Part shown: one piece after another, positions 7,664 through 32,942 of the stretch | How the letters are laid out: the number at the start of each line of letters is the position of its first letter | Numbering within the stretch: position 1 is the first letter of the stretch | DNA from: a virus | IMG/VR virus record: IMGVR_UViG_3300032238_000527 | Location: 1 to 48,162 of that record | Length of the DNA: 48,162 bases | Direction: 5' to 3' (one strand) | Notes under the pieces: generated by a model | Seen by the model: only the letters and a program-made list of their open reading frames with translations | Database searches by the model: none | What the model was told of the DNA's origin: nothing | Made by a program: the position numbers and the translations under genes

Positions 7664-8594
7664 TTTGAATCCCTACATCTTTAATAATTTTTGAATACCT
7701 AATATGATCATTAACAATGTGTTGTTTTAAAACTTCGGGAGAACCTCCAATTGACGTAAAAGCTAATAATTTTAGTCTGTTTGAAATTTCAGGCATCTTA
7801 AGTATTTCATTTAGTTCAATATTAAGTTTTTTTACAAGATCATCAGGCATACCTTTAGGACCAACAAACCCCATCCAACCGTAAATTTCAATTCCTGGAT
7901 ATCCTAATTCTGCTAGCGTAGGTACGTTAGGTTGATAGGGTGAACGTTTATTATCAGCAACTGCTAGAACTTTTAGCTTGCCTTGTTCAAGATGTTGTAG
8001 TACAGGAACTAATGAAGTATACATTACTGGTACTTGTCCATTAAGTAAATCAATAACTGCTGGAGCATTACCTCTGTAAGGTATGTGTGTTAGATTAATT
8101 CCAGTAGACTTATTAACTACTTCTCCTAGAATATGCATTGGGCTTCCAGCGCCAGGACTTGCATAACCAGTTAGTTTATTTGATTTAGATGCGGCAATAA
8201 AATCTTTAAAATTAATAACACCTGTATTGCTGTTAACAACAACAAACATACTCTGTCTTGACACTAGCATGATTGGTGTAAAGTCTGCTGGGTCGTATCT
8301 AGCGCCGCCTCTTAATAATAGAGGAGCCATAACCATAGTATTAGGTGTAAGCAATAGTGTAGTGCCATCGGGATTGGCTTGGGCAACATACTGATTTCCA
8401 ATAGTTCCGCTAGCACCTGTTCGATTTTCTACAATTACAGGAATGTTTAGTCTGTTAGTAAGTTGTTCTGCAAACATTCTAGCAAGAACATCAGTATCAC
8501 CTCCTGCCGGAAACGATACTACTACAGTAATAGACTTTTGTGCGTAAGCAAAACAACTAAATGCTGTGAGTAATATAAGAAGTAGTTTTTTCAT
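7656..8594 (-). CDS. Tripartite tricarboxylate transporter substrate-binding protein (Bug/TctC)
   Basis: A 312-residue periplasmic binding protein. Signal peptide at residues 1-18 ending FAYA-Q, then hallmark motifs VVSFPAGGDTDVLAR, VENRTGASGTIG and PGAGSPMHILGE of the Bug family, which bind carboxylates including aromatic acids. Bug proteins are especially numerous in Burkholderiales, which hints at the host lineage. No transporter membrane subunits are nearby, so it would need host partners. Its start overlaps the hydroxylase stop (ATGA). Confidence 0.92.
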   Translation of the reverse strand: MKKLLLILLTAFSCFAYAQKSITVVVSFPAGGDTDVLARMFAEQLTNRLNIPVIVENRTGASGTIGNQYVAQANPDGTTLLLTPNTMVMAPLLLRGGARYDPADFTPIMLVSRQSMFVVVNSNTGVINFKDFIAASKSNKLTGYASPGAGSPMHILGEVVNKSTGINLTHIPYRGNAPAVIDLLNGQVPVMYTSLVPVLQHLEQGKLKVLAVADNKRSPYQPNVPTLAELGYPGIEIYGWMGFVGPKGMPDDLVKKLNIELNEILKMPEISNRLKLLAFTSIGGSPEVLKQHIVNDHIRYSKIIKDVGIQID

Positions 8595-9658
8595 AGTGTA
8601 TTAAGGGTATTATAAAAATTGTTAATTTTAGATTGAGCAGTGGAGGGCATGTTTGCAATCATCTCTTTATAACTAGTATAGCTCTCAGTTGCTCCTGCAA
8701 CCCCCACTGCTCGAGATGTATCTTGTACATATTTGCACATTGGATATCTACGTTCTCCAAATGCGCTTAACTCTATATTAGCATCTAATAGTTCTCCGAG
8801 CAAGACGGCATCATGTACAGCCATAGAACCGCCTTGTCCGCTGAACGGAGTACTAGCATGGGCCGCATCGCCAATTAGTAGCACATTGTTTTTATTCCAA
8901 GGTGTAGGCATTATAACTTCTTCCGCAGGTGTAAAGTAAACATTTTGATTAAAAGTTAACTCGTCAAGCAAGGGCCTAGCAGGGCCCTCAAACTCTAGAA
9001 ACTTCTCATACATCACAGCTGACCAAATGTTACGTTCATATAAATGTTTTTCTGGAACATGCACAACACCCCATACATACAATTCATCGTCACTTATTGG
9101 CATAATTCCTAATCGTTTGCCTGCACTGAACATTGTAATTTTATCAACTAGATTTTTTGGGCGTTTGTGTGTACTGCGCCAAACTTCAAACTCTGAATAT
9201 ACTGGGGTAACTTCTGGCCAAAATAAATTTCTTACACTAGAGTTTATGCCGTCAGCACCAATTACTAAATCAAAATTATCAAAAGAATAAGAATCAATGG
9301 TTGTGTTTAGTTGTATTTCAACGCCAAGAATTTTTAATTCTTCTGCTAGTACACGATGCATAGCAGATCGTCTAATGCCTAAAATTCTAGGATACACTAC
9401 ATCGGTTATATGATTTCCAATATTGTCCATGTAGACATTTCGTCCATTTGGTATTAAGAATCCAGCTTGTTCAATTTTAGTTAGTAATCCTAATTTGTTG
9501 AAATTATCTAATCCGTTACTATAAACAAAGATACCAGAGCTAATAGGTTCAGAGGTAGATGATTTTTCTATTAAGGTAACAGACCACCCGCGTCTTGCTA
9601 ACACGATCGATGCTGTGCAACCCGCAATGCCTGCGCCTACTACAAGAACTTTCTTCAT
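8591..9658 (-). CDS. FAD-dependent class A monooxygenase
   Basis: A 355-residue flavoprotein of the p-hydroxybenzoate hydroxylase / UbiH / TetX group. It has the dinucleotide-binding GAGIAG near residue 8, the DG motif (VIGADGINSSVR) and the GD motif (LIGDAAHASTPFSGQGG) for the FAD ribityl chain. Such enzymes hydroxylate aromatic rings with NAD(P)H and O2. It heads an operon with the Bug protein and the extradiol dioxygenase, matching a hydroxylate-then-cleave order. Detoxification of an antibiotic or a quinone-type role cannot be excluded. Confidence 0.9.
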   Translation of the reverse strand: MKKVLVVGAGIAGCTASIVLARRGWSVTLIEKSSTSEPISSGIFVYSNGLDNFNKLGLLTKIEQAGFLIPNGRNVYMDNIGNHITDVVYPRILGIRRSAMHRVLAEELKILGVEIQLNTTIDSYSFDNFDLVIGADGINSSVRNLFWPEVTPVYSEFEVWRSTHKRPKNLVDKITMFSAGKRLGIMPISDDELYVWGVVHVPEKHLYERNIWSAVMYEKFLEFEGPARPLLDELTFNQNVYFTPAEEVIMPTPWNKNNVLLIGDAAHASTPFSGQGGSMAVHDAVLLGELLDANIELSAFGERRYPMCKYVQDTSRAVGVAGATESYTSYKEMIANMPSTAQSKINNFYNTLNTL

Positions 9659-9687
9659 CTAATACTTAGTGTAACTACTAGCTGAGT

Positions 9688-9715
9688 TAAAAAAATAGCA
9701 CCCGAAGGTGCTATT
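9688..9715 (-). terminator. Terminator of the tmRNA transcript
   Basis: The minus-strand stem AATAGCACC/GGTGCTATT closes a TTCG loop and runs into a T tract, just after the tmRNA coding piece. Confidence 0.88.
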
Positions 9716-9716
9716 A

Positions 9717-9930
9717 GTTATTTGGGTGACAAGGCTAACTAGACCTCGCAAGTGCTGTTTCTTAGGCAGCTAGGGCAAACTCGATGTCGTTCTTTGCAGA
9801 AACGCCAACGGGAGCTTGCCAGTACTTGAATGTAGATGCTTTTGCATTTACTTGATTTGCTTGATTTACGGTCATCGCCTACCGTGTTGCCGTCTCTACT
9901 ATCTACCCCTGTCGAAACCATGGCAGGCCC
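9717..9930 (-). ncRNA. ssrA: Permuted tmRNA, coding piece
   Basis: The 5' end GGGCCTGCCATGGTTTCGACAG is the tmRNA start. Its first seven bases pair perfectly (one G-U) with CAGGTCC of the acceptor piece at 10086-10150, which lies upstream in the transcript. A hairpin ACGGT/ACCGT (pseudoknot 1 region) follows. A tag frame ending AKNDIEFALAA and TAA (9797-9762) matches the ALAA degradation tag. The resume codon could lie further upstream in the same open frame. The 3' end of this piece is estimated. Gene order acceptor-spacer-coding identifies the two-piece form known in alphaproteobacteria, some betaproteobacteria and cyanobacteria. Confidence 0.88.
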
Positions 9931-10073
9931 ATCATAAAGAAACTTATCTCTGATTTGATCGCATCAAGCACTTGGGTAGTAACATCTTCACTTTGTCCAA
10001 CGATTGGTTCAAATTCGTAGATACAAATTGTTTTTGTTACGCCTTCATGTTCCGCTGTGATATCAATCTTCAT
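9903..10073 (-). CDS. 56-aa ORF inside the tmRNA internal spacer
   Basis: An ATG ORF begins 13 bases after the CCA end of the acceptor piece with the ribosome site AAGGAAG, fills the internal spacer and ends 28 bases inside the coding piece (TAG at 9903-9905). The product (MKIDITAEHEGVTKTICIYE at its N-terminus) is acidic and reads like a real protein through residue about 45; the last residues are tmRNA sequence translated. tmRNA maturation would cut the message, so translation and tmRNA processing should compete. Function unknown. Confidence 0.6.
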   Translation of the reverse strand: MKIDITAEHEGVTKTICIYEFEPIVGQSEDVTTQVLDAIKSEISFFMMGLPWFRQG

Positions 10074-10085
10074 TAAACTTCCTTA

Positions 10086-10150
10086 TGGTGGACCTGGCGG
10101 GAGTCGAACCCGCGTCCAAGAGTCCTTCGCTTTGAAGGGATTACAACAAT
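10086..10150 (-). ncRNA. ssrA: Permuted tmRNA, acceptor piece
   Basis: The minus strand carries a perfect T arm (GCGGG-TTCGACT-CCCGC), the acceptor strand CAGGTCC, discriminator A and encoded CCA, the typical tmRNA 3' end. Upstream is a small hairpin CCTTC/GAAGG. The mature 5' end of this piece cannot be fixed; it begins just after the cold-shock gene stop codon, so the pre-tmRNA may be co-transcribed with that gene. Confidence 0.88.
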
Positions 10151-10154
10151 TCTT

Positions 10155-10358
10155 TTAGGCAGGCTGGATGTTACTAGCCTGTGCGCCTTTCATGCCTTGG
10201 GTTACTTCAAACTTTACACTCTGTCCTTCTTGTAGACTTTTGAAGCCACCTGAATTAATCTGTGAAAAGTGTGCAAATACATCTGCGCCACCATTGTCGG
10301 GAGTAATGAAACCAAAACCTTTGGTATCGTTAAACCACTTTACTTTTCCTGTTATCAT
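10155..10358 (-). CDS. Cold-shock domain protein
   Basis: A 67-residue CspA-type single-strand nucleic-acid chaperone. The RNA-binding motifs KGFGFI and DVFAHF are intact, and the length is that of a single cold-shock domain. It likely melts RNA structure during infection. A promoter-like pair upstream (10505-10533) would give a leader of about 140 bases, as in cspA mRNAs. The tmRNA acceptor piece follows within a few bases. Confidence 0.93.
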
Positions 10359-12318: not shown

Positions 12319-14370
12319 TTATTTTTCGTGAGCAATAAACTCGCCGTTCCAATTGTCTGGTAAGTCTTGTTGCTTCATAAAGTCACAGCGTTCAATCCAA
12401 ATTTTGTAGTATTTGTCCATTTGTCCACCAAAGTTGCCTTTTAGTTTTTTACACATTGCGGCAGCTTCATCAAACTTTTTCTGTTTGTACAAGGCATGCA
12501 TTTCTTCATGCTGTGCTTTGTCTTTGCTATAATCAACACCGCGTGTGCGTAGTGCTGTATAGATTAAGTCTGCTACTGTCTTACCTTTTGGTTGTAAGTT
12601 GTCTAGCATTAGATAGAAGAAGTCGTCTTTAGTTCTATTGTATGTTTCAGCACCAATAATACATAGTACGCCATAGGCCTTACAACGTGCTTCTAAACGT
12701 GCGGCAGTACTAACCATGTCACCTAAGATGTCATAGCTGTGTCTTTCTGTTGAACCCATTTCACCAATAAAGCCAGTACCTGAGTTACAACCCCAACCCA
12801 TTGCGGCTGGTGGTAATCCTTGTGCTTCCATCTGCTTAGTATACTCGTCTACTTTGTCCAACATTTCAAGTCCTACCTTAACGATAGTTCTAGCATGATT
12901 AGGATCTTCAATAGGAGCACCATGTATGTGCATTGACGCATCGCCTACGTATTTGATAACCATACCTTTGTTGTCTAACATTGGCTGGCTGATAGCATCC
13001 ATATAGCCGTTCATGTACTTGCCAAGTCCAGCAACGTCATCGCCATAGTGTTCACCGATAGGTGTAAAGCCACGTAGGTCACTAAACATAACTGATACGT
13101 CTTTACGTACACCACGTTTGATTAAGTCTGGATCTTTTTGCAGTAACTCTACAACTTCTTTAGAGCAGTAGCCAGCAAACTGTTTCTTTATGGCTTGCTT
13201 TTGTAAGAACTCACTTACGAACTTAACACCGTAAGCATGAAGGAGAATAAGAGTAGTACCCACAGCAAGGGCAGTAATGTCAACAAGCCAAAGATTATTC
13301 GTGTAAAGATACTGAGATAAAGGATACAAAATACCAAGAGAGATAACGCCACTAGCAAGTCCAACATAAGTCCACCTTGTTAAAAATAGTAAAGCAATGC
13401 CTGCTACTACTAAGGCAAGAATTTCTGCGCCATCGGCCCAATCTGGACGTTGTATAACAACTCCGTTCATCATGGTGCCTATAACGGCGGCTTGTACATC
13501 ATGAGGCCATATTGCGCCTTTACTTGTTGGTAATGGGTTACCGATACCTGCGGCAGTAGGTCCTACTATAACAATAGCACCTTCTAAATCTTTTGGTAGT
13601 TGAGTTAAACTAAAACTACGATTCTGCTGACTCCAGTCAATCCACACACGACCTAGGTTGTCTGTAGTCACAGGGCCAAACTTAGGAATACGCATCTTTT
13701 CCACCCCGCCCTCAAATAACTTAACTTGGAAAGTTGAGTCACCGGCGGCTACTCGTAGGGTTTCTAAACTCATTGCAGGATACAGTTTACCTTCGACTGT
13801 AACAATTAAAGGCATGCGGCGATTAACACCGTCAACTTCTGGTAGTGTGTTTACAATACCAATACCTGCGGCCGAATTTTCTAGTGCAGGTACGTTAGCG
13901 ATAAGTCCAGGATACTGAACTATTTGATCTAACCATTCTGGTCCTAGTACAGCACTACCTGGATTGCGAGGAGTATTCTTTGTCTTCTGACTAGGAACGC
14001 TTCCTAGTATTACGGGATAATGTTTAAGAGCGGCGGCCAGATCCCTATCCCCACCAGTACGATCACGCTCAGCCATGAGCACGTTAAGCACAACAAGGCC
14101 AGCATTACGACGATAAAGGTCTTCAATAATTTCAGCATAATTAACCCTCGGTAATGGCCACTGGCCGTATTTGTCTAAGGAAGCCTCGTCTATGTTGACC
14201 GTGACAATGTTGTTGAATGTTGGAGCTTTGTTAGTGATTAATGTGTCAAAATAGCGTAGTCTTACGCTTTCAACAAATGTAGGGTCTGCTATACGTATGC
14301 CCACAACTAACGCAAGGGTTAGTAGTGCAGTCCACGGACTTACTAATATTTTTTTGAATTCAATTTTCAT
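12319..14370 (-). CDS. CHASE2-domain class III adenylate cyclase
   Basis: 683 residues: an N-terminal membrane helix, an extracytoplasmic CHASE2 sensor (about 25-310), three membrane helices (about 315-385) and a cyclase domain (about 423-610). Metal-binding D431 and D477, adenine-specifying K473 and D547, and transition-state R558 are present, but the usual Asn is Ser (S554 in GDMVSTAARLE). It should make cAMP in response to a periplasmic signal if active. A lipoprotein gene overlaps its start (ATGA), and the curli-like operon lies upstream on the same strand. Confidence 0.9.
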   Translation of the reverse strand: MKIEFKKILVSPWTALLTLALVVGIRIADPTFVESVRLRYFDTLITNKAPTFNNIVTVNIDEASLDKYGQWPLPRVNYAEIIEDLYRRNAGLVVLNVLMAERDRTGGDRDLAAALKHYPVILGSVPSQKTKNTPRNPGSAVLGPEWLDQIVQYPGLIANVPALENSAAGIGIVNTLPEVDGVNRRMPLIVTVEGKLYPAMSLETLRVAAGDSTFQVKLFEGGVEKMRIPKFGPVTTDNLGRVWIDWSQQNRSFSLTQLPKDLEGAIVIVGPTAAGIGNPLPTSKGAIWPHDVQAAVIGTMMNGVVIQRPDWADGAEILALVVAGIALLFLTRWTYVGLASGVISLGILYPLSQYLYTNNLWLVDITALAVGTTLILLHAYGVKFVSEFLQKQAIKKQFAGYCSKEVVELLQKDPDLIKRGVRKDVSVMFSDLRGFTPIGEHYGDDVAGLGKYMNGYMDAISQPMLDNKGMVIKYVGDASMHIHGAPIEDPNHARTIVKVGLEMLDKVDEYTKQMEAQGLPPAAMGWGCNSGTGFIGEMGSTERHSYDILGDMVSTAARLEARCKAYGVLCIIGAETYNRTKDDFFYLMLDNLQPKGKTVADLIYTALRTRGVDYSKDKAQHEEMHALYKQKKFDEAAAMCKKLKGNFGGQMDKYYKIWIERCDFMKQQDLPDNWNGEFIAHEK

Positions 14371-14510
14371 GATCTAGGAGCCGCGCCGTTTCGAGTAGCA
14401 GGATCCCATGAATGGCAACCTTTGGGCAGTCCGTCTTTATCGCAGAAAGATATTCCCGCGCACCCTGCTAGAGTTAGAATAAGTGATAATATTAAGATGT
14501 TCTTTAGCAT
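14367..14510 (-). CDS. Small lipoprotein (47 aa)
   Basis: A short product with a lipoprotein signal peptide and lipobox LAGC (Cys17), followed by a 30-residue mature part containing two more cysteines. The stop overlaps the cyclase start by ATGA. TAAATA stands four bases before the ATG and no ribosome site is seen. It may tether or sense for the CHASE2 domain; that is inference. Confidence 0.7.
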   Translation of the reverse strand: MLKNILILSLILTLAGCAGISFCDKDGLPKGCHSWDPATRNGAAPRS

Positions 14511-14517
14511 GAAATAT

Positions 14518-14832
14518 TTAGCTGGACTTTGTTCGGGTAGTTTTATGATTAACTAAAGTAGAATTAGATCCGGTACCTAAAATACAAGCAACATCATCGT
14601 TGTATTGTACCATAGTCCAGGTTTTAGTTTTTTCGTTTACCATTAACACATATTTGCTACTAGTATCTTTGCCTACCCAAAACGGCACTTCTTGCCATTC
14701 GGGTCCTGACATTGTTTCAATAACTGTTTTAACATCTGAACAGAGTACAGGTTTCTCGATTTCAATTGGTGGTTGGGCGTAGGCTACGAAGCTGATTAGG
14801 CCTAATAGGAACGCCGATGCTACACTTCGCAT
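14518..14832 (-). CDS. Exported hypothetical protein (104 aa)
   Basis: Signal peptide of about 19 residues ending VAYA-Q, then a small periplasmic domain with two cysteines (CSDVK and ACILG) that could form a disulfide. No family recognised. It sits between the curlin-PA14 gene and the lipoprotein gene. GGAGA lies before the ATG and a TAAATA box at 14851-14856. Confidence 0.65.
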   Translation of the reverse strand: MRSVASAFLLGLISFVAYAQPPIEIEKPVLCSDVKTVIETMSGPEWQEVPFWVGKDTSSKYVLMVNEKTKTWTMVQYNDDVACILGTGSNSTLVNHKTTRTKSS

Positions 14833-14856
14833 AGGCTTCTCCTTGTTAGGTATTTA

Positions 14857-17007
14857 TTACTGTCTAACAGTTGTAGAGCATCCTGCTGGATTTGTACAAC
14901 TCTGTATTATAGTAAATGATTTGCCACCGCTTTGTTGGATGTCTAAACTAGCAGGACCTCCAGCATTGGTTAAATCTATATTGGCTTTATTTGCTGTGTT
15001 ACCGGATTGTGTTGCAAGCACACTATTGCCGTTACCAGTTAGTTTGTTTTCAAGATAATGATTTCCACCACCTTCTTGAACTGCGGTGATAGAGTTGTTG
15101 TTTCCAGTGACAGTATTGAACATTAGATTGTTGCCGTTGTCTTTTTGAGTTACGTTAATATTATTATTACTACCTGATATTATTTTTGTTTCTTGGTAGT
15201 TAGCGCCTGCGGTGTTTGTTTGGCTAGAGGTAACAGAGTTTGAACTTCCTTGCACTAGTGCATTTAAATAGTTTGTGCCGGTTTGAGTAACACCCACTGT
15301 ATGAGAACCAGTGCCACCTAATCCTATATTAGCAGTATTCTTTGCCCCAGATTGCGTAACATTAACTGTATTTTGGTCTCCGCTTATCTGCTCAATATAC
15401 AAATAATTGTTAACTGACTGTGTTGCGTTGTTCCATGTATTATAACGTGTTTGTTGCTCAGTTGTTGCACCGGCAGTGCTTGAACCACCACTAGTGATAG
15501 TTTCTGTTCCTGTACCATTTTGAAGATCAATAGTGCCGCCTTCAATAACAGGTCCTAATGATACAGAAGTTCCAGCTATATCAACTACTGCGCTGTTAGA
15601 ATAAGCTAATCCTGTAGCGTCAACCGTGTTTGTTTCTGTTATCCATCCTGTGGTAAATGCAGAGTTAGGTACGCCAGTTCTGCCTGCACCGTAATCCCAT
15701 TGAAACTTCATTCCGTACCCGCCTAGGTCATTCCAATACCATGCTTCAAGATTATAAGTTTGTCCAGCAACTACGTCTATCCAACCAGATGCTGTATAAC
15801 TAAAAATACTTTGCCATTGGTTAGTTGATTGGTCATTAATGATCGTTTGACTGTTTATTTTTAAAACAAATCCGTCATCACTATTGCTGTAAAAATATAA
15901 TCTATAAACAGTGCCTGCTGGATGTAAGTTAGTTATTGGTGCTGTGATAGTTCCGCTGTATGCTACTAATGTACCTTCTCCCATTCCCGGAAATGATCCG
16001 TTTGTTGGAACATAGATGCCGTTAGTAGTACGTCCACTGGCTACTTGATTATAAGCACCAGGCGACAAGTTAGGCACACGATAAGGTCCTAACCAGTTTT
16101 TGCCACATATTCCAAAAACACAAGTATAAGTGTAAGCATCAAAGTCGTAAACTTTATAGTTTAATCCTTGTAGTACGTTTTGTGTTGTAGTTGTAGTAGA
16201 ACCATTTGCTTCAATAGTAGTTACTCCGTTAGTTGTAACTTTGCTGATAGGAGTAGTTGTTGTAGTTAATACTCCATTTACAATCTTGTTAGTTACTACA
16301 TTAGAAGAAACTCGTGTTTGATATAGAGTTTCAGTTCCGTTGCTACTAGATGTTGTACCATCATTATAAGTTGTGATAGTCACAGGTGTTTGATAAACAG
16401 TAATTGTGTTACCACTTACTACATTTCGTGTTGTGTAAGTTACTGCTGTTCCTGTTACTGTTCTTACAGGTGCGGCAGGTGCTACAGTTTGTCCGGCAGA
16501 TAATGGGGTAGTTGAACCGTTTGTAGCATAGGTGTTAACTTGAGTTACTGTTGGATTCAATGTTCCAGTCCAAGTAACTCCGCTGGTATTAGTAAAGCCC
16601 TGAGTCATGCTGAACAACTGTCCAGTATTATTATCATTACCTACAAAGAAAAAATAGTCAGTACCCATGTTAATAATGTGTCCAGTACCCATAACTGCTT
16701 TTTGTGTGCCATTAGCACTATATTGAATAGCATTCCACGGATTAGTAGCATCTCCTGTTGCGACAAATGCTACATAGTCTCCAGCGGCCCAGGATAGTTG
16801 GCCGTTGTACCAAGGAATTTTATATGCTGTCCCGGGATTCTTACTGTAGATTTGGCAAGTTGCTGTTTGTGTACAGGATTGAACATTCCACTGACTATCA
16901 GCTATTTGTGCTTGTCCAAACTTTAAGTCAGCAAGCCCGGTGGCTTGACTGTATGCGCTAACACATATAGTTAATAAGAATAAAAACTGTAGGAAACGCT
17001 TTATCAT
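14857..17007 (-). CDS. Exported curlin-repeat protein with PA14-like domain
   Basis: 716 residues. A signal peptide (about 1-20, SAYSQ) is followed by a Thr/Ser-rich region, a PA14-like sugar- or surface-binding domain around residues 320-470 (YFYSNSDDGFVLKINSQ, then WYWNDLGGYGMKFQWDY) and about seven curlin-type repeats of the form GxxNxxxxxQxGxxN from about 535 to the end. CsgA-type repeats form amyloid. The start overlaps the FecR gene stop (ATGA). It looks like an amyloid-anchored adhesin exported through the CsgG pore. Confidence 0.78.
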   Translation of the reverse strand: MIKRFLQFLFLLTICVSAYSQATGLADLKFGQAQIADSQWNVQSCTQTATCQIYSKNPGTAYKIPWYNGQLSWAAGDYVAFVATGDATNPWNAIQYSANGTQKAVMGTGHIINMGTDYFFFVGNDNNTGQLFSMTQGFTNTSGVTWTGTLNPTVTQVNTYATNGSTTPLSAGQTVAPAAPVRTVTGTAVTYTTRNVVSGNTITVYQTPVTITTYNDGTTSSSNGTETLYQTRVSSNVVTNKIVNGVLTTTTTPISKVTTNGVTTIEANGSTTTTTQNVLQGLNYKVYDFDAYTYTCVFGICGKNWLGPYRVPNLSPGAYNQVASGRTTNGIYVPTNGSFPGMGEGTLVAYSGTITAPITNLHPAGTVYRLYFYSNSDDGFVLKINSQTIINDQSTNQWQSIFSYTASGWIDVVAGQTYNLEAWYWNDLGGYGMKFQWDYGAGRTGVPNSAFTTGWITETNTVDATGLAYSNSAVVDIAGTSVSLGPVIEGGTIDLQNGTGTETITSGGSSTAGATTEQQTRYNTWNNATQSVNNYLYIEQISGDQNTVNVTQSGAKNTANIGLGGTGSHTVGVTQTGTNYLNALVQGSSNSVTSSQTNTAGANYQETKIISGSNNNINVTQKDNGNNLMFNTVTGNNNSITAVQEGGGNHYLENKLTGNGNSVLATQSGNTANKANIDLTNAGGPASLDIQQSGGKSFTIIQSCTNPAGCSTTVRQ

Positions 17008-18116
17008 TTTTGTACAATAGTAATGATAGTGTTGCCGCCCTGATTAACACGGTTCTTAAACTCTAAACTACCTTGTGTTTGGTAAATTAAAGAGTTTTGT
17101 GTTAATGGAGTAGTTATACATTGTTGGTCGCTGCCGTTGTCTCTACATAAGCTGACAGACATTTCGTCTTTAACAGCAACAATGCCGCTTGATTTTTTGT
17201 AGTCAGGTAATACACTGTCTACTTCGCTTAAAAAGTTTTCGTTTAGTCCGTTTCCAATCATATCAAATATACTAGCAAGGAATTGATTATCTAAAAAGTT
17301 TTGTGCTAAACGGTCAACATACATATTAGCTAGTTGTGCTTCGAGTGCGTTCTCTAACCCTTTTTCTTTTAAGAAGTCAACATCTAAAAAACTTTTAGCG
17401 GCAGACCTTTCACTTCTACCTGTTTCTTTAATTTCTTTTGGAGGACTTAGTAGTAGCATATTGCCAATGGCATCTTCTGATAAGTTTAGTATTACTGGGC
17501 GAGTCGGAGGTTGGGCTCGACTATTAACCTGAGTGGCTTGGAAGGCCTGGTTAAGAATTACAATACCAGCATCTGTTTCAACTGATATTTCTCCAACTTT
17601 ACAATTCTTTTCTATATCGTCTTTGGTTCTACTTTTGTTACGATCATCGGGACAACTTGGAAGTAGTATAACTGTTGATTGTCCTAGTTCGTCAACTGAG
17701 GCAGTAAAATCAGTACCACGAACACTAATAGTAGCAGTAGGCGTATTAAGAGCAACATTTTGCGGGCTGTTCTTAGCAATTTGTCCACTTGCGTAGCGGA
17801 CAGTTCCAAGTGCAATTTTAGCACCTAGTTTACCCGATTTAGATTTAGGATCATATACGAAGTCATCAATTACCAACTTGCTATTTTCATTTACTTGAAC
17901 ACGAGTGTCGTCTTCAAAGGTTATTCCCACTTTCCCCTGTTGGGTTTTGATCGCATCGTTCATTTCCACTCCCGTGCCCTTGGACCCCGTTAGTGTCTGT
18001 TTGTCTCTCTGAATGCTGGGAGGAGTGTTGAGTTGTTCTGTTACTTTGCCTATCGCGGCGTGACTCGACGAGGTACCTAGCAACAGTAAGCATAGTATTG
18101 CTGTCCATATTTTCAT
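17004..18116 (-). CDS. Exported FecR-domain protein
   Basis: The start at 18116 gives a 370-residue protein with a signal peptide (MKIWTAILCLLLLGTSSSHA). A FecR domain spans about residues 30-150, with the characteristic TPTATISVRGTDF. FecR domains are periplasmic sensor or scaffold modules, often near CHASE2 cyclases and surface-polymer genes. Its start overlaps the 57-aa gene by ATGA. The C-terminal half is unassigned, helical and acidic. Confidence 0.85.
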   Translation of the reverse strand: MKIWTAILCLLLLGTSSSHAAIGKVTEQLNTPPSIQRDKQTLTGSKGTGVEMNDAIKTQQGKVGITFEDDTRVQVNENSKLVIDDFVYDPKSKSGKLGAKIALGTVRYASGQIAKNSPQNVALNTPTATISVRGTDFTASVDELGQSTVILLPSCPDDRNKSRTKDDIEKNCKVGEISVETDAGIVILNQAFQATQVNSRAQPPTRPVILNLSEDAIGNMLLLSPPKEIKETGRSERSAAKSFLDVDFLKEKGLENALEAQLANMYVDRLAQNFLDNQFLASIFDMIGNGLNENFLSEVDSVLPDYKKSSGIVAVKDEMSVSLCRDNGSDQQCITTPLTQNSLIYQTQGSLEFKNRVNQGGNTIITIVQK

Positions 18117-18286
18117 CTGTCCCCCCATTCAAACCAACTGTATTTCTGTAATTCTCTCATGATGGCATCACCAGTAGTGTTTTGCCATTTAGCCGCTTGT
18201 TCTACAAAAGAAGACCAGTCACGAACATAGTGTTCATTACCTTGCATCCATGCTTGGTACATCTTTTGTAGTTCGCTTTCAAACAT
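18113..18286 (-). CDS. Hypothetical protein (57 aa)
   Basis: A small soluble, aromatic-rich, probably helical protein without a signal peptide. It fills the gap between the curlin gene and the FecR gene, with the stop/start junction TAATATG on one side and an ATGA overlap on the other, so it is clearly part of the operon. Function unknown. Confidence 0.65.
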   Translation of the reverse strand: MFESELQKMYQAWMQGNEHYVRDWSSFVEQAAKWQNTTGDAIMRELQKYSWFEWGDR

Positions 18287-18287
18287 A

Positions 18288-19247
18288 TTAGTTTTTCTGT
18301 AATATTCTGTATGTGCTGTTACTGCCAGTTATTTTAATATTTGATACGTTATCAACACTACCTTGCTGTGTAATACCAACATCGTTACTTGAACCTGCAA
18401 TATCTAGTTTAGCATATTGTCCAATAGATAGTCCACCGCTTTGTACAATGTTAGTGATATTGTTTGATCCCACTGCTTTATAATCAACAACATTATCATT
18501 AACTCCACTTTGTGATATAGTAGTTTGATTACCTTGACCGTCTAGATCAATCTTAACATAATTACCGTTGGTGCTACCACCGCTCTGAGTTACGCTAGTA
18601 ATATTAGTTGCGCCTCTAGTATCAATATCTACATAGCCTTTGTTACCTGTTAGGTTAAGAGTAGTTAAATTGCCGCCGCCTAATGTTTGATTTACATTTG
18701 CAATTACATTATCTGCGTTAATTGTAGCGTCAATTGAGTTGCCACCACCACCACTCGATCTTACAACTAAACTATTTGTGTTACCTAACATATTCACATT
18801 GGTAATAGCATTACCGCCTAACTGTATAATATCAATTATATTACTGGCACTAACACCATTTCCGTTGTTATTACTGTTGATATATGCAATATTTCCGCCA
18901 ACATCAACTTTATAGTTTAACTCAATGCCTTTGCCAGTAGTCCCAACTGTTGTGTTAAGTCCTAGTGACAGTTTATTATTTGGGCCTGCTTGCTCAATAG
19001 TAACTGTTTGGACATCACCTTTAAGTTTAGCTGGATCTTGAGGATTGGTACTAGCCGTTCCGTTTGTCAGTATTCCATTAACTTTGTTGCCAGCGCCGTC
19101 CTGAGTCATAGTGATAGTGCTGTTATCGCCAGATTGGTCGATATAAATGCTATTATCAACACCCCAGCTTGTGGCTGAAATGCTTAGTAGCATTATAGTG
19201 AGTAATTTTCTCGACAACCCACCAACACCTGTCATTCTTTGTTCCAT
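18288..19247 (-). CDS. Curlin-repeat amyloid subunit (CsgA/CsgB-like)
   Basis: 319 residues: an N-terminal signal sequence (ending SATSWG-V), then curlin-type repeats over the whole mature part, for example NSTITMTQDGAGN and NQTTISQSGVNDN, with the alternating N-x-x-x-x-x-Q-x-G-x-x-N register that stacks into amyloid. It is longer than classical CsgA (about 150). It lies directly downstream of csgG and upstream of the FecR and curlin-PA14 genes. Confidence 0.85.
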   Translation of the reverse strand: MEQRMTGVGGLSRKLLTIMLLSISATSWGVDNSIYIDQSGDNSTITMTQDGAGNKVNGILTNGTASTNPQDPAKLKGDVQTVTIEQAGPNNKLSLGLNTTVGTTGKGIELNYKVDVGGNIAYINSNNNGNGVSASNIIDIIQLGGNAITNVNMLGNTNSLVVRSSGGGGNSIDATINADNVIANVNQTLGGGNLTTLNLTGNKGYVDIDTRGATNITSVTQSGGSTNGNYVKIDLDGQGNQTTISQSGVNDNVVDYKAVGSNNITNIVQSGGLSIGQYAKLDIAGSSNDVGITQQGSVDNVSNIKITGSNSTYRILQKN

Positions 19248-19385
19248 TTTGTTAAAATGATTGCTTATTAGTTTACAATCAAGTTCCTTGGTCTTTAACC
19301 TTATAATAATTATTCGCTACCCTATAAATATTTAATACATACTACCTTTTCATAATGCTCCGATGTTATTTTTTCGTTATCATCA

Positions 19386-19405
19386 GGTGTAAAAAAATTT
19401 ACACC
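19386..19405 (-). terminator. Hairpin downstream of csgG
   Basis: A perfect 8-bp stem GGTGTAAA/TTTACACC lies 19 bases after the csgG stop. No T tract follows in the leftward direction, so it may slow decay or attenuate rather than end transcription. Confidence 0.55.
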
Positions 19406-19423
19406 GTTAAAAAAACAACACCA

Positions 19424-20713
19424 TTACTTCTTATCTTCTAACTTGTTAGACTGTATCCAACCGCCGCGGTCAGTACCGTCTGTTACCATCACTCTCCACC
19501 AACCTTCTGTTCCTGGTTGTCTAATACTCATTACAGTACCTTTGGCAAACCACCACTTCTTGGTACTTGTTTCTTTTTCTTCTGCATATAGGAACGAATT
19601 TTCTTTTAATACTCGTTCACCAAACAGTGTTATAGTTGGCTTAACGCCTGTCTGCATATCTGTTACTGCTAGTTTTTCTTCTTTAGCGGCCTCACTTTTT
19701 CTTTCGACTCTTGCAGGTGCTTGTCTGTCATTGGACTGCTGTGGTGCGGGTGATGGCTGCTCTTGGGCAGGGGCGGATTCTTTGGGGGCTTGTGTCTGAA
19801 CCAACTCATCTTTCTTCTCCTCAGGTTTTCTTATTTCTGACGATATCACTGGAGCAGGAGTAGTTGGTAATACAAGCGGCGCCTGAGTCTTTGGAATAAT
19901 AACCTCAGTCACTGGATCGTGTCTGTAGTCCCAAAGTGCTTTACGCTGACCTTCTTTGATTAACTCTACTACTGCCATTTCAATTGCTGCCTTGACAGCG
20001 TATGTGCCTGGTTCGTTAATGGTTAAGCCTGCTTCTGCTTCAAATGCCTGTGTTCCTTGATCAAAGAACTTTAGTGCTGTTGCTGAGTCTGCTGTACTTA
20101 AGATTGTCTTTTGTACTGTTACTACTGCTAGAACTTTACCTGTGTTTACACTCACTGCTCTAATGCTAACAGTTACAGTATCTTGGCTCCATTGTGTTTG
20201 TTTGCCAATACCAAAAATACGCATGCCAGCACCGCCACTGTTTACAGTAGTGTCATATCCTACAATACCACCTTCGATGATCATGCCAGCGAACTGCATT
20301 GGCATCAAGGGTCTAGCATTGTTACCTTCGTAGGCTTCGCGCATCTGACGAATGATTAATCGCTCTTTAGTTAAGTTGTCAATACCTACACGTTCTACAA
20401 CTTCAAACCATTGTCCTTGCCCTACTCCTTGTAGTGCTTGTATTAAGAATGTTTCAGCACCTTGTGTAACTGCTGAACTTAAACTAGCTACGTTAGCTTG
20501 TGGTCGTCGCTGTCCAGTTTTATCTGCAAAACTATAAACTGCTACGCTAACAGGTTTGCCCGCCGCAGGTGCTGGAATAGTATCAAATTCTTTTTTGACA
20601 CTTTTCATTTGTGTTGTAATACTAGGATCTGTTTCTGTCAAGCCGGTACTTTGCATTACTGCACAACCACTAAGTGTTGAAATAATAGCTAGAGATATTA
20701 GTGTACGTTTCAT
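19424..20713 (-). CDS. csgG: Curli secretion pore CsgG with C-terminal SH3-like domain
   Basis: A 429-residue lipoprotein (lipobox LSGC, Cys17). Residues 45-270 match CsgG: PVSVAVYSFADKTGQRRP, the VVERVGIDNLTKERLIIRQ segment, and later strands lining the pore. Classical CsgG is about 260-280 residues; here a Pro/Gln/Glu-rich linker (about 280-365) leads to an SH3-like domain (about 370-425, WWFAKGTVM, GWWRVMV, GGWI). Such a domain could bind peptidoglycan. CsgG forms a nonameric outer-membrane channel for curlins. It follows csgF with a 3-base gap. Confidence 0.9.
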   Translation of the reverse strand: MKRTLISLAIISTLSGCAVMQSTGLTETDPSITTQMKSVKKEFDTIPAPAAGKPVSVAVYSFADKTGQRRPQANVASLSSAVTQGAETFLIQALQGVGQGQWFEVVERVGIDNLTKERLIIRQMREAYEGNNARPLMPMQFAGMIIEGGIVGYDTTVNSGGAGMRIFGIGKQTQWSQDTVTVSIRAVSVNTGKVLAVVTVQKTILSTADSATALKFFDQGTQAFEAEAGLTINEPGTYAVKAAIEMAVVELIKEGQRKALWDYRHDPVTEVIIPKTQAPLVLPTTPAPVISSEIRKPEEKKDELVQTQAPKESAPAQEQPSPAPQQSNDRQAPARVERKSEAAKEEKLAVTDMQTGVKPTITLFGERVLKENSFLYAEEKETSTKKWWFAKGTVMSIRQPGTEGWWRVMVTDGTDRGGWIQSNKLEDKK

Positions 20714-20716
20714 TTA

Positions 20717-21253
20717 TTAATTCCCCGGCATGTTGAATGATTCTAACGGAACATAGATACATGTTGGTCCACCAGTTACGCCACAAGCTAAATTTTTGTC
20801 TGATCCTGGATCTGTTACTTTTAATAATATACAAGTGCCAGCAGTTGAACCTGTACAATTAAATGCATCACTTACTCTACTCCAAGCAATATTACTTCCT
20901 TGAAATGTAATTGCACCTGTACAAGTAGAGCTTGTTGCCACTGAACAGCTATTATTAGCAAACATAGCAGTTGCTACATTTTGTGATATCTGTGCGTAGA
21001 TGCGTGATTCTAAGTTGTTTAAAAACTTAGCTAAATTTGTGTTTTTTTCATCTGAAGCCACTTTGTCAATTGCCGCTTGAACTTTATCTTCTTGTGCTTT
21101 ACGACGAACTGCTTCTTGATTCTCAATTGTTAAAACGTGAGAACTATATCCCACGCCATTAAACGCAGGGCTTTTAAATTGATAATCTCCCAATGGTGCC
21201 GCATAACATAATGCGGTCATAGAGAATAATACTGTTGTAAGTATTGCCTTCAT
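20717..21253 (-). CDS. csgF: Curli assembly factor CsgF
   Basis: A 178-residue exported protein. The signal peptide ends CYAA; the mature N-terminus YQFKSPAFNG matches the CsgF motif (YxFxxPxFxG) that inserts in the CsgG pore. A helix around residues 45-90 follows, then a C-terminal part with four cysteines not typical of E. coli CsgF. First gene of the curli-like operon; GGGAGCG precedes the ATG. A TATAAT box lies near 21300 without a clear -35. Confidence 0.85.
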   Translation of the reverse strand: MKAILTTVLFSMTALCYAAPLGDYQFKSPAFNGVGYSSHVLTIENQEAVRRKAQEDKVQAAIDKVASDEKNTNLAKFLNNLESRIYAQISQNVATAMFANNSCSVATSSTCTGAITFQGSNIAWSRVSDAFNCTGSTAGTCILLKVTDPGSDKNLACGVTGGPTCIYVPLESFNMPGN

Positions 21254-21342: not shown

Positions 21343-22851
21343 TTATTTAATTTTAAAACTTAATGGTCCAATAGGTAAACGTGTAGCCATATAGTTATTA
21401 TCAGCTTCCATTAAGAATTGACCAGTAAATATTGGTGGATAAACTACAGTGAAATTAGTAAACGCCGCGCCATCTTCCATGTCTTTCAATTTAGTTGTTT
21501 TAACAGTAGTCTTAATTTGAATCATATTACTACGTTCTAACAATGCACGGAATAAGTTACCAGTAGATGGATCTTTATTAGCTTGGTTAGCAATAGTTTT
21601 TGCTAGTGCGGCTAACAAGTGAGAACCTAAGTTATAACTAGGATCTTCAAATTTTGCACCTTTAGCACTAGTTAAGTCATATAGTGTTTGGCTAATAGTG
21701 CCTTGTTCTAATGCCTGTGCTGGCGGTGTTCTATCTTTGCTTTGAATAAGTTTAACAATTAACTTTGCGTCTTCATCAGTAATAAGTTGATAGTGATCAA
21801 CACCTAAAATTAACGGGCCATTGATACCTTTATTAGATCTTGTCCAATAACGATTTTCAGGGTTAGCAACAATTTTTAATAATTTAAAAACTTCAGCGAA
21901 TTTTTTGTTACGTAATACATCAGCAAACTTTTCTGGGTTTTTAGTAACTTCTGCTACTAAGCCTGTAATACTAGCGGCTGCTCCACCTTTCTTATCTTTA
22001 CTACTAATTTTTAGTCTTGATGTTTCATCAAGTTTAATGTAGCTGTCATAAATGTGTTCATTCCCGGCACTTGGGAATAATACTTCTGCCAAATCACTCC
22101 ATGTTAAATCTAATGGCTTTAACAAATATTGTTCAGCTTTTATATAATCACCACCAACAAAGTTTCCAGTGATTAATGCTAACGGAGCGGCAGTTTCTCC
22201 TAAGTCAATTTCTAAACTGCTTTGATATTTGCCCATGCCCGGAGCAGGGGTTGTAGAACCATTAGTTACGTTTTCAAGCATAGTATAAACACCTTCTTTG
22301 AAAACAGTATCTAAGTCACTACGATTCTGTACAACTGATTTAACGCTGTCAATAACACCATCAACACTTAACCAGGTGTCGGATTGTAAAATGTCTGTTG
22401 GTTTTAGTTTAACTGTAGCACGTTGAGCAGTTTTGTTTTGTGCCCCATAACCGAAGTCTTTCTTAAAGTCTGCATTAGTTTGCAGAATAGGAGCGGCACC
22501 TTCTCCTTTTTTCTTGGCTAGTTTAATAAATGCCAAAGGAGTACCAGTAGCTAAGTCTGTCCATACACTAACTAGTGCGGCACGTGAAGTTTCTGGTTTG
22601 CCTGAGTATTGTACATCTTCTGCGGCTACTTCAAACATAGCTAAGAATGCAGTAATCTGTTGATCTAACTCTTCGTATGTTTGATATTCACCTTCTTGGG
22701 GGAATACTTCTGCAGATTGCAGTTTGATTTCTTGGTTATTTTGTGCGTTTTTAAAACGTACTTCTGCGCCTTGCTCTACTTCTTGAGCACGGCGGAATAT
22801 GCCGCCTTGGCTTTCTTTAATAGGTGTTTGTTTAAACTCGAAAAATCGCAT
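21343..22851 (-). CDS. Large hypothetical phage protein, possible capsid-targeted
   Basis: A 502-residue soluble protein without recognised domain. It begins MRFFEF, similar to the T4 capsid-targeting start (MKTYQEF) and to MKVTEF and MHFNEF of other proteins in the window, which suggests packaging in the head. TAAATA lies seven bases before the ATG and no ribosome site is seen. No enzymatic motif was found by eye. Confidence 0.6.
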   Translation of the reverse strand: MRFFEFKQTPIKESQGGIFRRAQEVEQGAEVRFKNAQNNQEIKLQSAEVFPQEGEYQTYEELDQQITAFLAMFEVAAEDVQYSGKPETSRAALVSVWTDLATGTPLAFIKLAKKKGEGAAPILQTNADFKKDFGYGAQNKTAQRATVKLKPTDILQSDTWLSVDGVIDSVKSVVQNRSDLDTVFKEGVYTMLENVTNGSTTPAPGMGKYQSSLEIDLGETAAPLALITGNFVGGDYIKAEQYLLKPLDLTWSDLAEVLFPSAGNEHIYDSYIKLDETSRLKISSKDKKGGAAASITGLVAEVTKNPEKFADVLRNKKFAEVFKLLKIVANPENRYWTRSNKGINGPLILGVDHYQLITDEDAKLIVKLIQSKDRTPPAQALEQGTISQTLYDLTSAKGAKFEDPSYNLGSHLLAALAKTIANQANKDPSTGNLFRALLERSNMIQIKTTVKTTKLKDMEDGAAFTNFTVVYPPIFTGQFLMEADNNYMATRLPIGPLSFKIK

Positions 22852-22861
22852 AGTACAATAT

Positions 22862-23542
22862 TTAGCGAATTTCCGGGAACAAACATTCCTGTATGAATAC
22901 TTTAACGTCTTCTTCAGATAGCCCTAAACTAACCATTACACGCGGTGTATGCGGGTTACATTTCTGATTCTGTGCGTAATAGTTCTGTGCTTCTGTAGTA
23001 TCAACGGCTGTATTGTTAGTTTCCGCTACAGTTTCCAAATAATGCGCTACAGTATCTTTAGCCATGACAATGATTTGGTCTAGTTCTTCATCGCTTTGTA
23101 CGTTACCTGCGGCAACCATACTCTTACTGAATATGTTTGTAGCCCACTCAGGTAGCTCGCGCTCTTTTCGCCAATCTAGCTGAGATACGTAGTCTGCAAA
23201 CCATTCCATCATAGGATGATCGGGATCGCCTGCTTTTGAGTAATCATGAAAGCAACCGGTAATCTTATTCTTACCGGCAATAACGTCAAATCCGTAAATC
23301 GGTGCTGGGTTGTGTGTATGTGGGAAGATGCAACAATGCATCATCCAGAGGCCTTTGGATTCCCTAGCATCCACAACATCAACGTGAGCCCTACGATACA
23401 AATCACTGGTCCAAACACGATTAACCCAACCAGGCTGATTAAAGCGATCCATGCCCGCTTCAAAGACTTCTGTTCCTGTTTCATTGAATTTGCTTTCTAA
23501 TAAATGCTGAACTTCGATCAGCGTGTCCCAGACTTTACTCAT
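22862..23542 (-). CDS. Ferredoxin-dependent bilin reductase (PcyX/PebS-like)
   Basis: A 226-residue member of the bilin reductase family. The core PIYGFDVIAGKNKITG followed by CFHDYS, the WRKERELPEWA segment and the C-terminal NPHTPRVMVSLG...LFPEI are typical; two conserved Asp (in GFDV and FHDY) sit where catalytic acids are known. These enzymes reduce biliverdin with ferredoxin electrons. The ATG at 23542 overlaps the heme oxygenase stop by 8 bases, so the product of one feeds the other. Two- versus four-electron reduction cannot be decided from sequence. Confidence 0.85.
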   Translation of the reverse strand: MSKVWDTLIEVQHLLESKFNETGTEVFEAGMDRFNQPGWVNRVWTSDLYRRAHVDVVDARESKGLWMMHCCIFPHTHNPAPIYGFDVIAGKNKITGCFHDYSKAGDPDHPMMEWFADYVSQLDWRKERELPEWATNIFSKSMVAAGNVQSDEELDQIIVMAKDTVAHYLETVAETNNTAVDTTEAQNYYAQNQKCNPHTPRVMVSLGLSEEDVKVFIQECLFPEIR

Positions 23543-24092
23543 CAACGTACTCTACTAGATCCATCATTTCATCAAAGAACTGTTTTGCATAATCAAAACA
23601 TACTTTAGCTTCGTCAGCTAAGTCATCTGTTAATTTTGTTCTAATAGCAGTTTTAATAGCGTCTGGATCATCACCAAATTGATAATACTTGCCACTGCCC
23701 GGAACACGTTTAGCAATCATTTGTCCGCCGGACAAGTCGCCCATGTGTCGAACATAGATGTGTGCCATTAGCTTTTTAGGATCGTCTTTAATACTGAGAA
23801 TATATTTGATATACTCTTCAGTTACTGTTAATATCTGTGGGTCGCCATCTTCTTCATTCCATAATTCTTGAAAATCTGCTAGAATAGCGGGAGCTCGTCG
23901 GATATCGGGAATACCGTCTAGTAAGCCATGTGGCATAGCACATACTTCTAAAATCTCATACATAGGATGCTGATTTTTTAAGTATGTTGCGTATAGCTTG
24001 GGATTAATTTTGCCTGAAAATAAAATTTTTACAAATGCAGAACGTTCAGCGTTAGTGTGTGCTTCTTTAGTGAGTTCACGTAGATTACTCAT
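23535..24092 (-). CDS. Heme oxygenase
   Basis: A 185-residue all-helical heme oxygenase. The proximal ligand is H12 in LTKEAHTNAE, and the distal helix HMGDLSGGQMIAKRVPG is the family signature. It converts heme to biliverdin, CO and Fe2+. It overlaps clpS upstream (ATGA) and the bilin reductase downstream, forming a heme-to-bilin pathway as seen in some marine phages. Confidence 0.93.
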   Translation of the reverse strand: MSNLRELTKEAHTNAERSAFVKILFSGKINPKLYATYLKNQHPMYEILEVCAMPHGLLDGIPDIRRAPAILADFQELWNEEDGDPQILTVTEEYIKYILSIKDDPKKLMAHIYVRHMGDLSGGQMIAKRVPGSGKYYQFGDDPDAIKTAIRTKLTDDLADEAKVCFDYAKQFFDEMMDLVEYVDE

Positions 24093-24391
24093 TCTTCCTC
24101 CAGTTTAATTTGTAGTGGGAAGCCATTTGTACGTGCTAACTGTGTTGACTCAACTGCTTTTGCTTCGGCGATTTCAAAACTATAAGTTCCGGCAATGCCA
24201 GCGCCAGTTTCATGTACAGTAAGTGTAATATCTCTAGCAGATGCCTCTGTGTGTTTGAAAATTTCAGTTAATAAACTAACAACAAAGTCCATTGGAGTGC
24301 TATCATCGTTTAAGAAAATAACTTTCCAACGCTTGGGTTCAGAAACTGTTACTTTAATCTTTTCGTCAATTTTAACGTCGGTTGTAGGCAT
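24089..24391 (-). CDS. clpS: ATP-dependent Clp protease adaptor ClpS
   Basis: A 100-residue adaptor. The core motifs FLNDDSTPMDFVVSLL and TVHETGAGIAG contain the residues that bind N-end-rule degrons and dock ClpA. The ATG at 24391 is preferred; a longer TTG start would begin within a hairpin. No ClpA/ClpP is visible, so it would redirect the host ClpAP, either toward or away from tagged substrates. Confidence 0.92.
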   Translation of the reverse strand: MPTTDVKIDEKIKVTVSEPKRWKVIFLNDDSTPMDFVVSLLTEIFKHTEASARDITLTVHETGAGIAGTYSFEIAEAKAVESTQLARTNGFPLQIKLEEE

Positions 24392-24413
24392 GGTTGTACT
24401 CTCTTTCAAAGTA

Positions 24414-24431
24414 GGGGGAGTTTCCTCCCCC
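24414..24431 (-). terminator. Strong hairpin between hsp20 and clpS
   Basis: The minus strand has GGGGGAG, a GAAA tetraloop and CTCCCCC: a 7-bp GC stem without a T tract. It probably protects the hsp20 3' end or sets the processing site between hsp20 and clpS. Confidence 0.6.
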
Positions 24432-24445
24432 AATATTATTTACAC

Positions 24446-24874
24446 TTATTTGACTTCAATTCTTCGAGGTTTAAGAGCCTCTGGAATTATAAGCGTTAGT
24501 TTAACATGTAGAATACCGTTTGTCAACTCCACATCACCCACTTCCATGTATTGTGGCAATGTAAATGCTCGTTCAAAATCACGAGCGGCTAAGCCACGAT
24601 GGATGTAAAGATCTGCGTTATCCTCTTTGGCTCGATGTCCTTTGATGATTAGTTGATCTTGATCTACTTCTACACTGATATCCTCTTTGTCAAAACCAGC
24701 TACAGCGATTTCAATCTCGTAGTTGTTCTCGTCATACTTGAGTACGTTGTATGGAGGATAGTTATTGTTTCCATTGAAAGCGCGAGCTTCAATGTTATTA
24801 AAGATTCGGTCGAAACCGATTAGTGCTCTGTTTATTTGTGCTAACGCATTAGCATCAATAGTTCTTAATTGCAT
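24446..24874 (-). CDS. Small heat-shock protein (Hsp20/alpha-crystallin)
   Basis: A 142-residue IbpA-like chaperone. The alpha-crystallin domain spans about residues 40-130, with the conserved AVAGFDKEDISVEV and the GILHVKLTL strand (the A-x-x-x-n-G-v-L motif). It binds unfolding proteins without ATP and hands them to DnaK, encoded just upstream. Hsp20 genes are common in T4-like cyanophages and pelagiphages. Confidence 0.93.
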   Translation of the reverse strand: MQLRTIDANALAQINRALIGFDRIFNNIEARAFNGNNNYPPYNVLKYDENNYEIEIAVAGFDKEDISVEVDQDQLIIKGHRAKEDNADLYIHRGLAARDFERAFTLPQYMEVGDVELTNGILHVKLTLIIPEALKPRRIEVK

Positions 24875-24905
24875 TTTATATCTCCTTAAAAAAGCAAGTT
24901 ATAGT

Positions 24906-24926
24906 GGGGACCCCGAAGGCGTCCCC
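24906..24926 (-). terminator. Hairpin between dnaK and hsp20
   Basis: The stem GGGGAC/GTCCCC encloses a nine-base loop containing CTTCGG. No T tract follows, so partial termination or transcript stabilisation is likely. Confidence 0.55.
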
Positions 24927-24953
24927 GATTGTTAATAAGTCACCTTTGACTTA

Positions 24954-32853: not shown

Positions 32854-32942
32854 AAATTTCTCCTTTACGCTGGAATAGGACAAAAGTTGTCCACAACCCA
32901 AAATACATCGGGCGTTAAATAATTATCTCGATACTTAGATGG

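Follow-up and report, generated by a model that had tools for sequence, protein, structure and literature searches.

We analysed a 48,162-nucleotide (nt) stretch of viral DNA (hereafter the window; IMG/VR virus record IMGVR_UViG_3300032238_000527), which carries at 12319-21253 a leftward type VIII secretion (curli) cassette in the order CsgF, CsgG, curlin A, FecR-domain protein, curlin B, an exported protein of 104 amino acids (aa) and CHASE2 adenylate cyclase. The cassette is real, widespread and of an already described kind, and the window holds a new member from a different phage lineage, whose anatomy makes the hypothesis on its working more precise. Our preferred reading, to which we give a probability of roughly 0.45, is that this phage-borne cassette provides the infected cell with anchored, lectin-bearing amyloid fibres linked to a cyclic AMP (cAMP) sensor. 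The cassette comprises the following features:

20717..21253, minus strand: CsgF homologue, 178 aa (Pfam CsgF, 4.2e-7; PHROG 35372, 1e-40)
19424..20713, minus strand: CsgG outer-membrane pore lipoprotein, 429 aa (Pfam CsgG, 2.1e-47, residues 53-262)
18288..19247, minus strand: curlin subunit A, 319 aa, exported and built of curlin repeats (Curlin_rpt, 2.9e-4)
17004..18128, minus strand: FecR-domain protein, the anchor in our reading, 374 aa (Pfam FecR, 5.4e-10; AlphaFold2 model)
17007..17096, minus strand: curlin-like C-terminal tail of the FecR protein, NSLIYQTQG...NRVNQGGNTIITIVQK (terminal motif; profile comparison)
14857..17007, minus strand: curlin subunit B, 716 aa (family-level matches to Curlin_rpt, PA14, GLEYA and F5/8-C; AlphaFold2 model)
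15574..16194, minus strand: PA14-type carbohydrate-binding head, curlin B residues 272-478 (fold matches of the model)
14860..15420, minus strand: curlin-repeat stalk, curlin B residues 530-716 (alignment positions; predicted local distance difference test, pLDDT)
14518..14832, minus strand: small exported protein, 104 aa, of no family (signal peptide by sequence inspection)
12319..14370, minus strand: membrane adenylate cyclase, 683 aa (Pfam CHASE2, 5.4e-40, and Guanylate_cyc, 9.3e-15; PHROG 35576, 1e-189)

All genes named in an earlier, sequence-only reading of this DNA (csgF, csgG, two curlin-repeat proteins, FecR and the CHASE2 cyclase) lie at the place and on the strand claimed, with Pfam or family-level matches, and the hidden Markov model searches it had proposed for Curlin, CsgG, FecR and CHASE2 (Pfam) all returned matches, that of curlin B at the family level. 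Two details of its description had to be corrected: the overlapping starts and stops claimed for the run reduce to a single overlap of 4 nt between FecR and curlin B, with a gap of 3 nt between csgF and csgG and 24-176 nt elsewhere, and the several small exported proteins reduce to one, the 104-aa protein, for which Pfam and PHROG gave no credible match. Pfam gave no match for the gene that precedes csgF (21343-22851), and the histidine kinase reported upstream in podovirus versions of the type VIII secretion system (T8SS) module (PMC9599517) was not found there.

A FecR-profile scan of viral contigs returned at least 533 relatives, and 79 viral loci were kept. The order csgF-csgG-curlin-FecR-curlin-cyclase recurs in nearly all 79, as far as their flanks reach, and chance is therefore excluded; the synteny check suggested for related phages also turned out positive, the order being shared by Melnitz and HTVC008M. 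The observation of a curli cassette on a phage, against which a bacterial chromosome, a chimera or missing curlin profile matches had been named beforehand, held on all three counts. A chimera or bacterial chromosome is ruled out by the even G+C content of cassette and flanks, by the phage-type neighbours (exonucleases, a tail spike match, a virion-protein match and ribonucleotide reductase) and by Gp23 or terminase on related contigs. A T4-type capsid protein or terminase is present in 12 of 31 cassette records, among them a 245-kb contig from the window's own CsgG clade (L011) and contigs of up to 338 kb. The window itself has neither T4-type capsid protein (Gp23) nor terminase, which says little for a 48 kb fragment, and a search for the tail sheath (5 of 34 records) was uninformative for its clade. 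With the cassette region as query, a nucleotide search of phage records gave no match.

To avoid the bias of FecR-seeded loci, we rescanned the viral contigs with CsgG and cyclase seeds and counted linkage in loci with enough flank. CsgG-seeded loci contained CsgF in 76 of 76 cases, FecR in 58 of 59 and the cyclase in 28 of 38, while cyclase-seeded loci contained FecR in 54 and CsgG in 53 of 56. CsgG, CsgF, curlin A and FecR diverge in step, their pairwise distances being correlated at r 0.65-0.87; FecR distances follow CsgG at r 0.87, curlin A at r 0.82 and CHASE2 at 0.51, and CHASE2 distances follow the core genes moderately (r 0.36-0.51). From these correlations and the linkage counts we read pore, subunit and FecR as one core machine with a more exchangeable sensor cyclase. 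Judged by dN/dS (the ratio of non-synonymous to synonymous substitution rates) of 0.03-0.27 in four pairs of related loci, one saturated CsgF comparison excepted, the cassette genes are under purifying selection. One locus (L284) has a split module, csgF-csgG on one strand and curlin-FecR-curlin-cyclase on the other, still adjacent. In more than 12 viral loci (e.g. L009, L015, L017, L019, L022 and L040) an open reading frame of 99-133 aa stands directly before csgF; it matches the profile of the cyclase, and by eye corresponds to the C-terminal tail of that protein.

The FecR-domain protein consists of a signal peptide, a FecR/retention-like beta domain (residues 23-225), a helical linker and a C-terminal beta domain (residues 316-373). 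Its AlphaFold2 model (pLDDT 80.6) resembles the signalling domain PupR CCSSD over residues 55-225 (Z 15.3) and, over residues 23-95, the RTX retention domain 5ix9 (Z 10.3; 72 residues, root-mean-square deviation (rmsd) 2.2, 24% identity), which Foldseek aligns with an rmsd of 1.4 over 67 columns (E 0.019) and which, going by the entry title, we take to be that of Marinomonas primoryensis. Adhesins are kept in the outer membrane by such retention domains, which fold within the cell (PMC12077191). Searching PDB sequences with the FecR profile gave nothing at E 0.1 or better, so that the fold search alone was informative; NCBIfam returned mainly Leptospira surface proteins (Lsa33, LipL45, Lsa19), far under cut-offs. 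Butyrophilin matches of the C-terminal beta domain (Z about 3) were discarded as not meaningful.

The FecR domain follows the signal peptide at once, leaving no room for a cytoplasmic anti-sigma domain, and an internal membrane-helix-like stretch is lacking in the window's protein and seen in 3 of 81 homologues; by this layout the protein appears to fall outside the FecR-type anti-sigma iron regulators. It ends in a curlin-like motif (consensus NRVN-x-GG-x-T-x-IT-xx-Q), which 79 of 82 phage loci share. Of the CsgG-seeded loci, 53 of 58 have a tail that fits and most others carry a variant; among 73 unrelated bacterial FecR proteins, the same loose pattern fits five and none has the full motif. 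When tail and curlin A were compared as profiles, the score was 19.6 against a maximum of 14.0 in 30 shuffles. Given the lack of iron-regulator parts, the likeness to a retention domain and the conserved curlin-like tail, we read the FecR protein as the fibre's periplasmic anchor or nucleator. The rival that survives best, itself unlikely, confines it to signalling: as CHASE2's partner in the periplasm it would sense curlin subunits via its tail and neither anchor nor nucleate the fibre. FecR genes do occur near CHASE2 in bacteria without curli (a CHASE2 gene lies within 18 of 73 such loci and is the direct neighbour in L097, L124, L153 and L155), and an operon of FecR and a CHASE2 kinase controls biofilm in Burkholderia (PMC5192318). 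In the phage cassette, however, FecR covaries far more with CsgG (0.87) and curlin A (0.82) than with CHASE2 (0.51), and it stays where the cyclase is absent.

Curlin B is composed of an N-terminal region, the PA14 head and the curlin-repeat stalk, and has two conserved cysteines near its C-terminus (C704, C710). Across its homologues, stalk and cysteine pair are conserved whereas the N-terminal part varies, with PA14 in 11, GLEYA in five and F5/8 type C in three of 49 proteins. The window's protein alone matches Curlin_rpt at 0.02, under the cut-off, and 25 of the 49 homologues match it (best 4.5e-11). Invariant or near-invariant Q/G/N positions mark the stalk in two alignments, and AlphaFold2 models most of residues 541-700 at a pLDDT of about 90. 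The window's head (residues 272-478) has no Pfam match; its AlphaFold2 model resembles the PA14-type domain 6qdi (Z 17.8), the carbohydrate-binding PA14 domain of the M. primoryensis adhesin (5j6y, Z 14.7), and the yeast flocculins Flo1/Flo5 and the Epa1 adhesin (Z 13-14.5). The family matches and this model suggest that the second curlin protein carries exchangeable sugar-binding heads on a curlin stalk, the head of the window being PA14 by fold. Our literature search found no paper joining curlin, a PA14 domain and phage. Exchangeable heads could bind self glycans too, and the fibre might then be a shield, an amyloid coat that blocks competing phages (superinfection exclusion) or grazers while its lectins bind the cell's own glycans, as suggested in PMC9599517; foreign targets would account for the variety of heads no less well, and we consider a shield rather improbable.

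CsgF has a signal peptide and, at residues 26-33 (FKSPAFNG), an F-x-x-P-x-F-x-G motif that is present in 70 of 81 homologues and by its position corresponds to the CsgG-docking segment. CsgG has the lipobox L-S-G-C (strict lipobox pattern in 71 of 82 homologues) and an extra C-terminal region of about 165 aa that is absent from the Melnitz and HTVC008M proteins. The Curlin_rpt match of curlin A is just above the Pfam cut-off; 53 of 58 homologues match (best 3.9e-17), and its profile finds 8c50 (6e-35) and the major curlin subunit 8enq (3e-7) in the PDB. With curlin-repeat subunits, a CsgG lipoprotein and a CsgF docking motif, the cassette is, as far as sequence can tell, a type VIII secretion (curli) system.

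That the CsgG-CsgF pore is instead a timing or lysis device (a gated secretin or pinholin), as proposed for Melnitz (PMC9004378), with the other genes as leftovers, strikes us as a long shot. The CsgE gate was not found in 31 records, so the pore may stay open, but nearly all loci keep curlins, lectin heads and FecR, under purifying selection, and a bare pore would not need them. Holins act on the inner membrane but CsgG forms its pore in the outer one, and the window has its own cell-wall hydrolase (32323-32901). The export pores for lysis considered in the sequence-only reading likewise leave the conserved subunits, lectins and FecR unexplained. We give hardly any credence to FecR as an iron-dependent regulator beside a pore that imports cofactors or siderophores (both ideas from PMC9599517), since the Pfam FecR match and PupR-like fold that speak for it are set against a protein without room for the anti-sigma domain, with the helix-like stretch in so few homologues and with a curlin-like end.

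The cyclase comprises a periplasmic CHASE2 sensor (residues 18-325), predicted membrane helices and a class III catalytic domain (residues 423-581). In 132 distinct viral cyclases, the metal aspartates D431 and D477, the lysine K473 that selects adenine and the catalytic arginine R558 are conserved, with one gap at D477, and the second adenine position is D, T or S. All 83 members of the window's subclass (83 of 132) have Ser (S554) for the usual transition-state Asn together with Asp at the adenine site; cyclases outside it have Asn with Thr or Ser. From the kept catalytic residues the enzyme is predicted to make cAMP from ATP, which fits the cAMP signalling proposed earlier.

Under the preferred reading, CsgG-CsgF, recognisable from sequence as export parts, would export both curlins. 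In the FecR protein, the folded N-terminal domain would stay behind in the periplasm and the tail would serve the curlin fibre as a template or docking site; for anchoring and nucleation, we infer that the protein stands in both for CsgB, the nucleator missing here, and for the retention domain found in RTX adhesins. Through CHASE2 the cyclase, whose catalytic residues are intact in sequence, may read the FecR protein's state, or that of export, and set the cAMP level of the infected cell. The benefit might come from the lectin heads, assigned by modelled fold, which could bind glycans on neighbouring cells or surfaces and so hold matrix, or the cells to be infected next, close to where virions are released. 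In its fullest form the cassette would be a self-contained signalling adhesive organelle, in which the tail of a retention-type FecR anchor nucleates lectin-tipped amyloid, the CHASE2 cyclase reports fibre state as cAMP and the virus steers cell-cell contact before release; this extended version we hold to be doubtful.

Several observations weigh against the anchored, cAMP-linked fibre. CsgE was found in none of the 31 cassette records, with E. coli as positive control and with most records possibly being fragments, and to call the cassette complete, as had been done, is therefore too strong. The cyclase is out of reach in 10 of 38 CsgG-seeded loci, and its catalytic domain hardly tracks the history of the cassette (r 0.15-0.25). 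The predicted template modelling score is 0.56 for the FecR model and 0.40 for curlin B, and headless curlin B proteins exist among the homologues. The profile comparison between FecR tail and curlin A reaches a probability of 3.6% only; their likeness is real at the motif level, and homology is not implied. Of 81 loci, 5 have a T4 late promoter (TATAAATA) upstream of csgF (about 0.6 expected), and so small a number does not reveal timing. The lectin heads make the earlier idea of coated cells and trapped neighbours more plausible, though unproven; the Melnitz study saw no clumping in cytograms or transmission electron microscopy (PMC9004378).

Contrary to the sequence-only reading, phages with subunits, FecR and cyclase together are not new, because Melnitz (MZ577097) and HTVC008M (NC_020484) have the same six-gene order and the module has been described (PMC9599517). 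Zaragoza-Solas et al. (2020) reported csgF, csgG and a curli-associated protein and proposed "sibling capture" (PMC7029224), and Buchholz et al. (2022) proposed the lysis-timing pore for the methylophage Melnitz (PMC9004378). Wittmers et al. (2022) described a pelagiphage csgF-csgG-csgA/B-FecR-csgA/B-cyclase module without CsgE, expressed in metatranscriptomes, and noted the absence of CsgE for alphaproteobacterial-type modules (PMC9599517). The window shares with the pelagiphage module (PMC9599517; HTVC008M; PMC7029224) the order csgF-csgG-curlin-FecR-curlin-adenylate cyclase and the lack of CsgE, but has a large PA14 head, the CsgG extension, the extra small exported gene and a betaproteobacterial-type permuted transfer-messenger RNA (tmRNA), and is not evidently a SAR11 phage. 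The term CHASE2 is not used in PMC9599517 or PMC7029224, and PMC9599517 does not mention PA14 and treats FecR as an iron regulator. Melnitz has the six genes in the same order at about 28-45% local identity and, like the window, a tmRNA gene a few kb from the curli cassette, whereas its curlin B has no lectin head. The Melnitz GenBank record (MZ577097; L002) annotates two curlin-repeat proteins and FecR, and PMC9004378 states that csgA/csgB are absent.

With E. coli curli (csgBAC-csgDEFG) the window has CsgG, CsgF and curlin repeats in common; CsgE was not found, CsgB, CsgC and CsgD are not recognisable, and the FecR protein, lectin-headed subunit and CHASE2 cyclase are added. LapA-type RTX adhesins (e.g. 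M. primoryensis MpIBP) share the retention-domain fold (FecR residues 23-95) and the PA14 lectin head (5j6y), but they are one chain using a type I system, whereas the window has these modules on separate proteins, which would be joined via curlin amyloid and the CsgG pore and together act as an anchored adhesin does. Pfam matched no RTX domain in the 374-aa FecR protein, which is no single giant RTX chain. The exchangeable lectin heads, the FecR anchor anatomy, the conservation of cyclase residues and the sister operons in Caulobacterales were not found in the literature searched.

These operons occur in three Caulobacterales genomes (L193, L197, L198) as single-strand runs of csgF-csgG-curlin(s)-FecR-CHASE2 cyclase, on chromosome-like contigs (one of 705 kb) amid ordinary metabolic genes. 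They have no lectin-headed curlin after FecR, unlike the phage cassette, and the FecR protein of L193 lacks the curlin-like tail. CsgF is present in 42 of 398 genomes sampled from the order. Among 18 Caulobacterales regions read, FecR and cyclase stand beside CsgF in only three, two of them from that sample. The phage-type CsgF profile, run on 385 genomes sampled from the class and 398 from the phylum, matched the reference genome alone. By these counts FecR-type chromosomal curli operons are rare. In the CsgG tree the trio clusters together (100/99) and next to all phage sequences (90/82); ordinary Caulobacterales curli fall outside, and long branches are flagged. Short contigs of metagenome-assembled genomes that carry the cassette (L083-L086, L104) group within the phages in the tree and were left out of the bacterial count. 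Cyclase and FecR have been stated to be absent from bacterial T8SS operons (PMC9599517); the three loci are exceptions, and they fit the acquisition of a ready-made operon, the direction being unproven.

A permuted (two-piece) tmRNA gene of betaproteobacterial type (9671-10190, minus strand) adjoins a cold-shock protein gene in the window and suggests, without proving, a betaproteobacterial host. The remaining minus-strand features include a tRNA cluster (128-1287; eight genes by ARAGORN, seven above threshold by Rfam) and a host-like stress set (23535-26846 and 5020-6065) with heme oxygenase (Pfam) and, by inspection, ClpS, Hsp20, DnaK and AhpC/AhpD-like proteins. IscU-like and IscA-like iron-sulphur assembly proteins were recognised by inspection at 33398-34076, and a TctC tripartite tricarboxylate receptor adjoins an FAD-dependent oxidoreductase at 7656-9658, which is unusual for a phage. 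A 500-aa protein (28323-29825) has a weak, sub-cut-off Tetraspanin match (6.5e-5), probably mere membrane-helix resemblance.

Phage curli modules have been puzzling since the pelagimyophage genomes, in which pores without clear purpose occur in phages whose hosts lack curli. The cassette is now placed in hundreds of viral contigs, some larger than 300 kb, and bacterial operons of the same make-up are likely relatives of its source. Its anatomy makes "sibling capture" testable, through the glycan bound by the head, the seeding of curlin by the FecR tail and the effect of export on cAMP.

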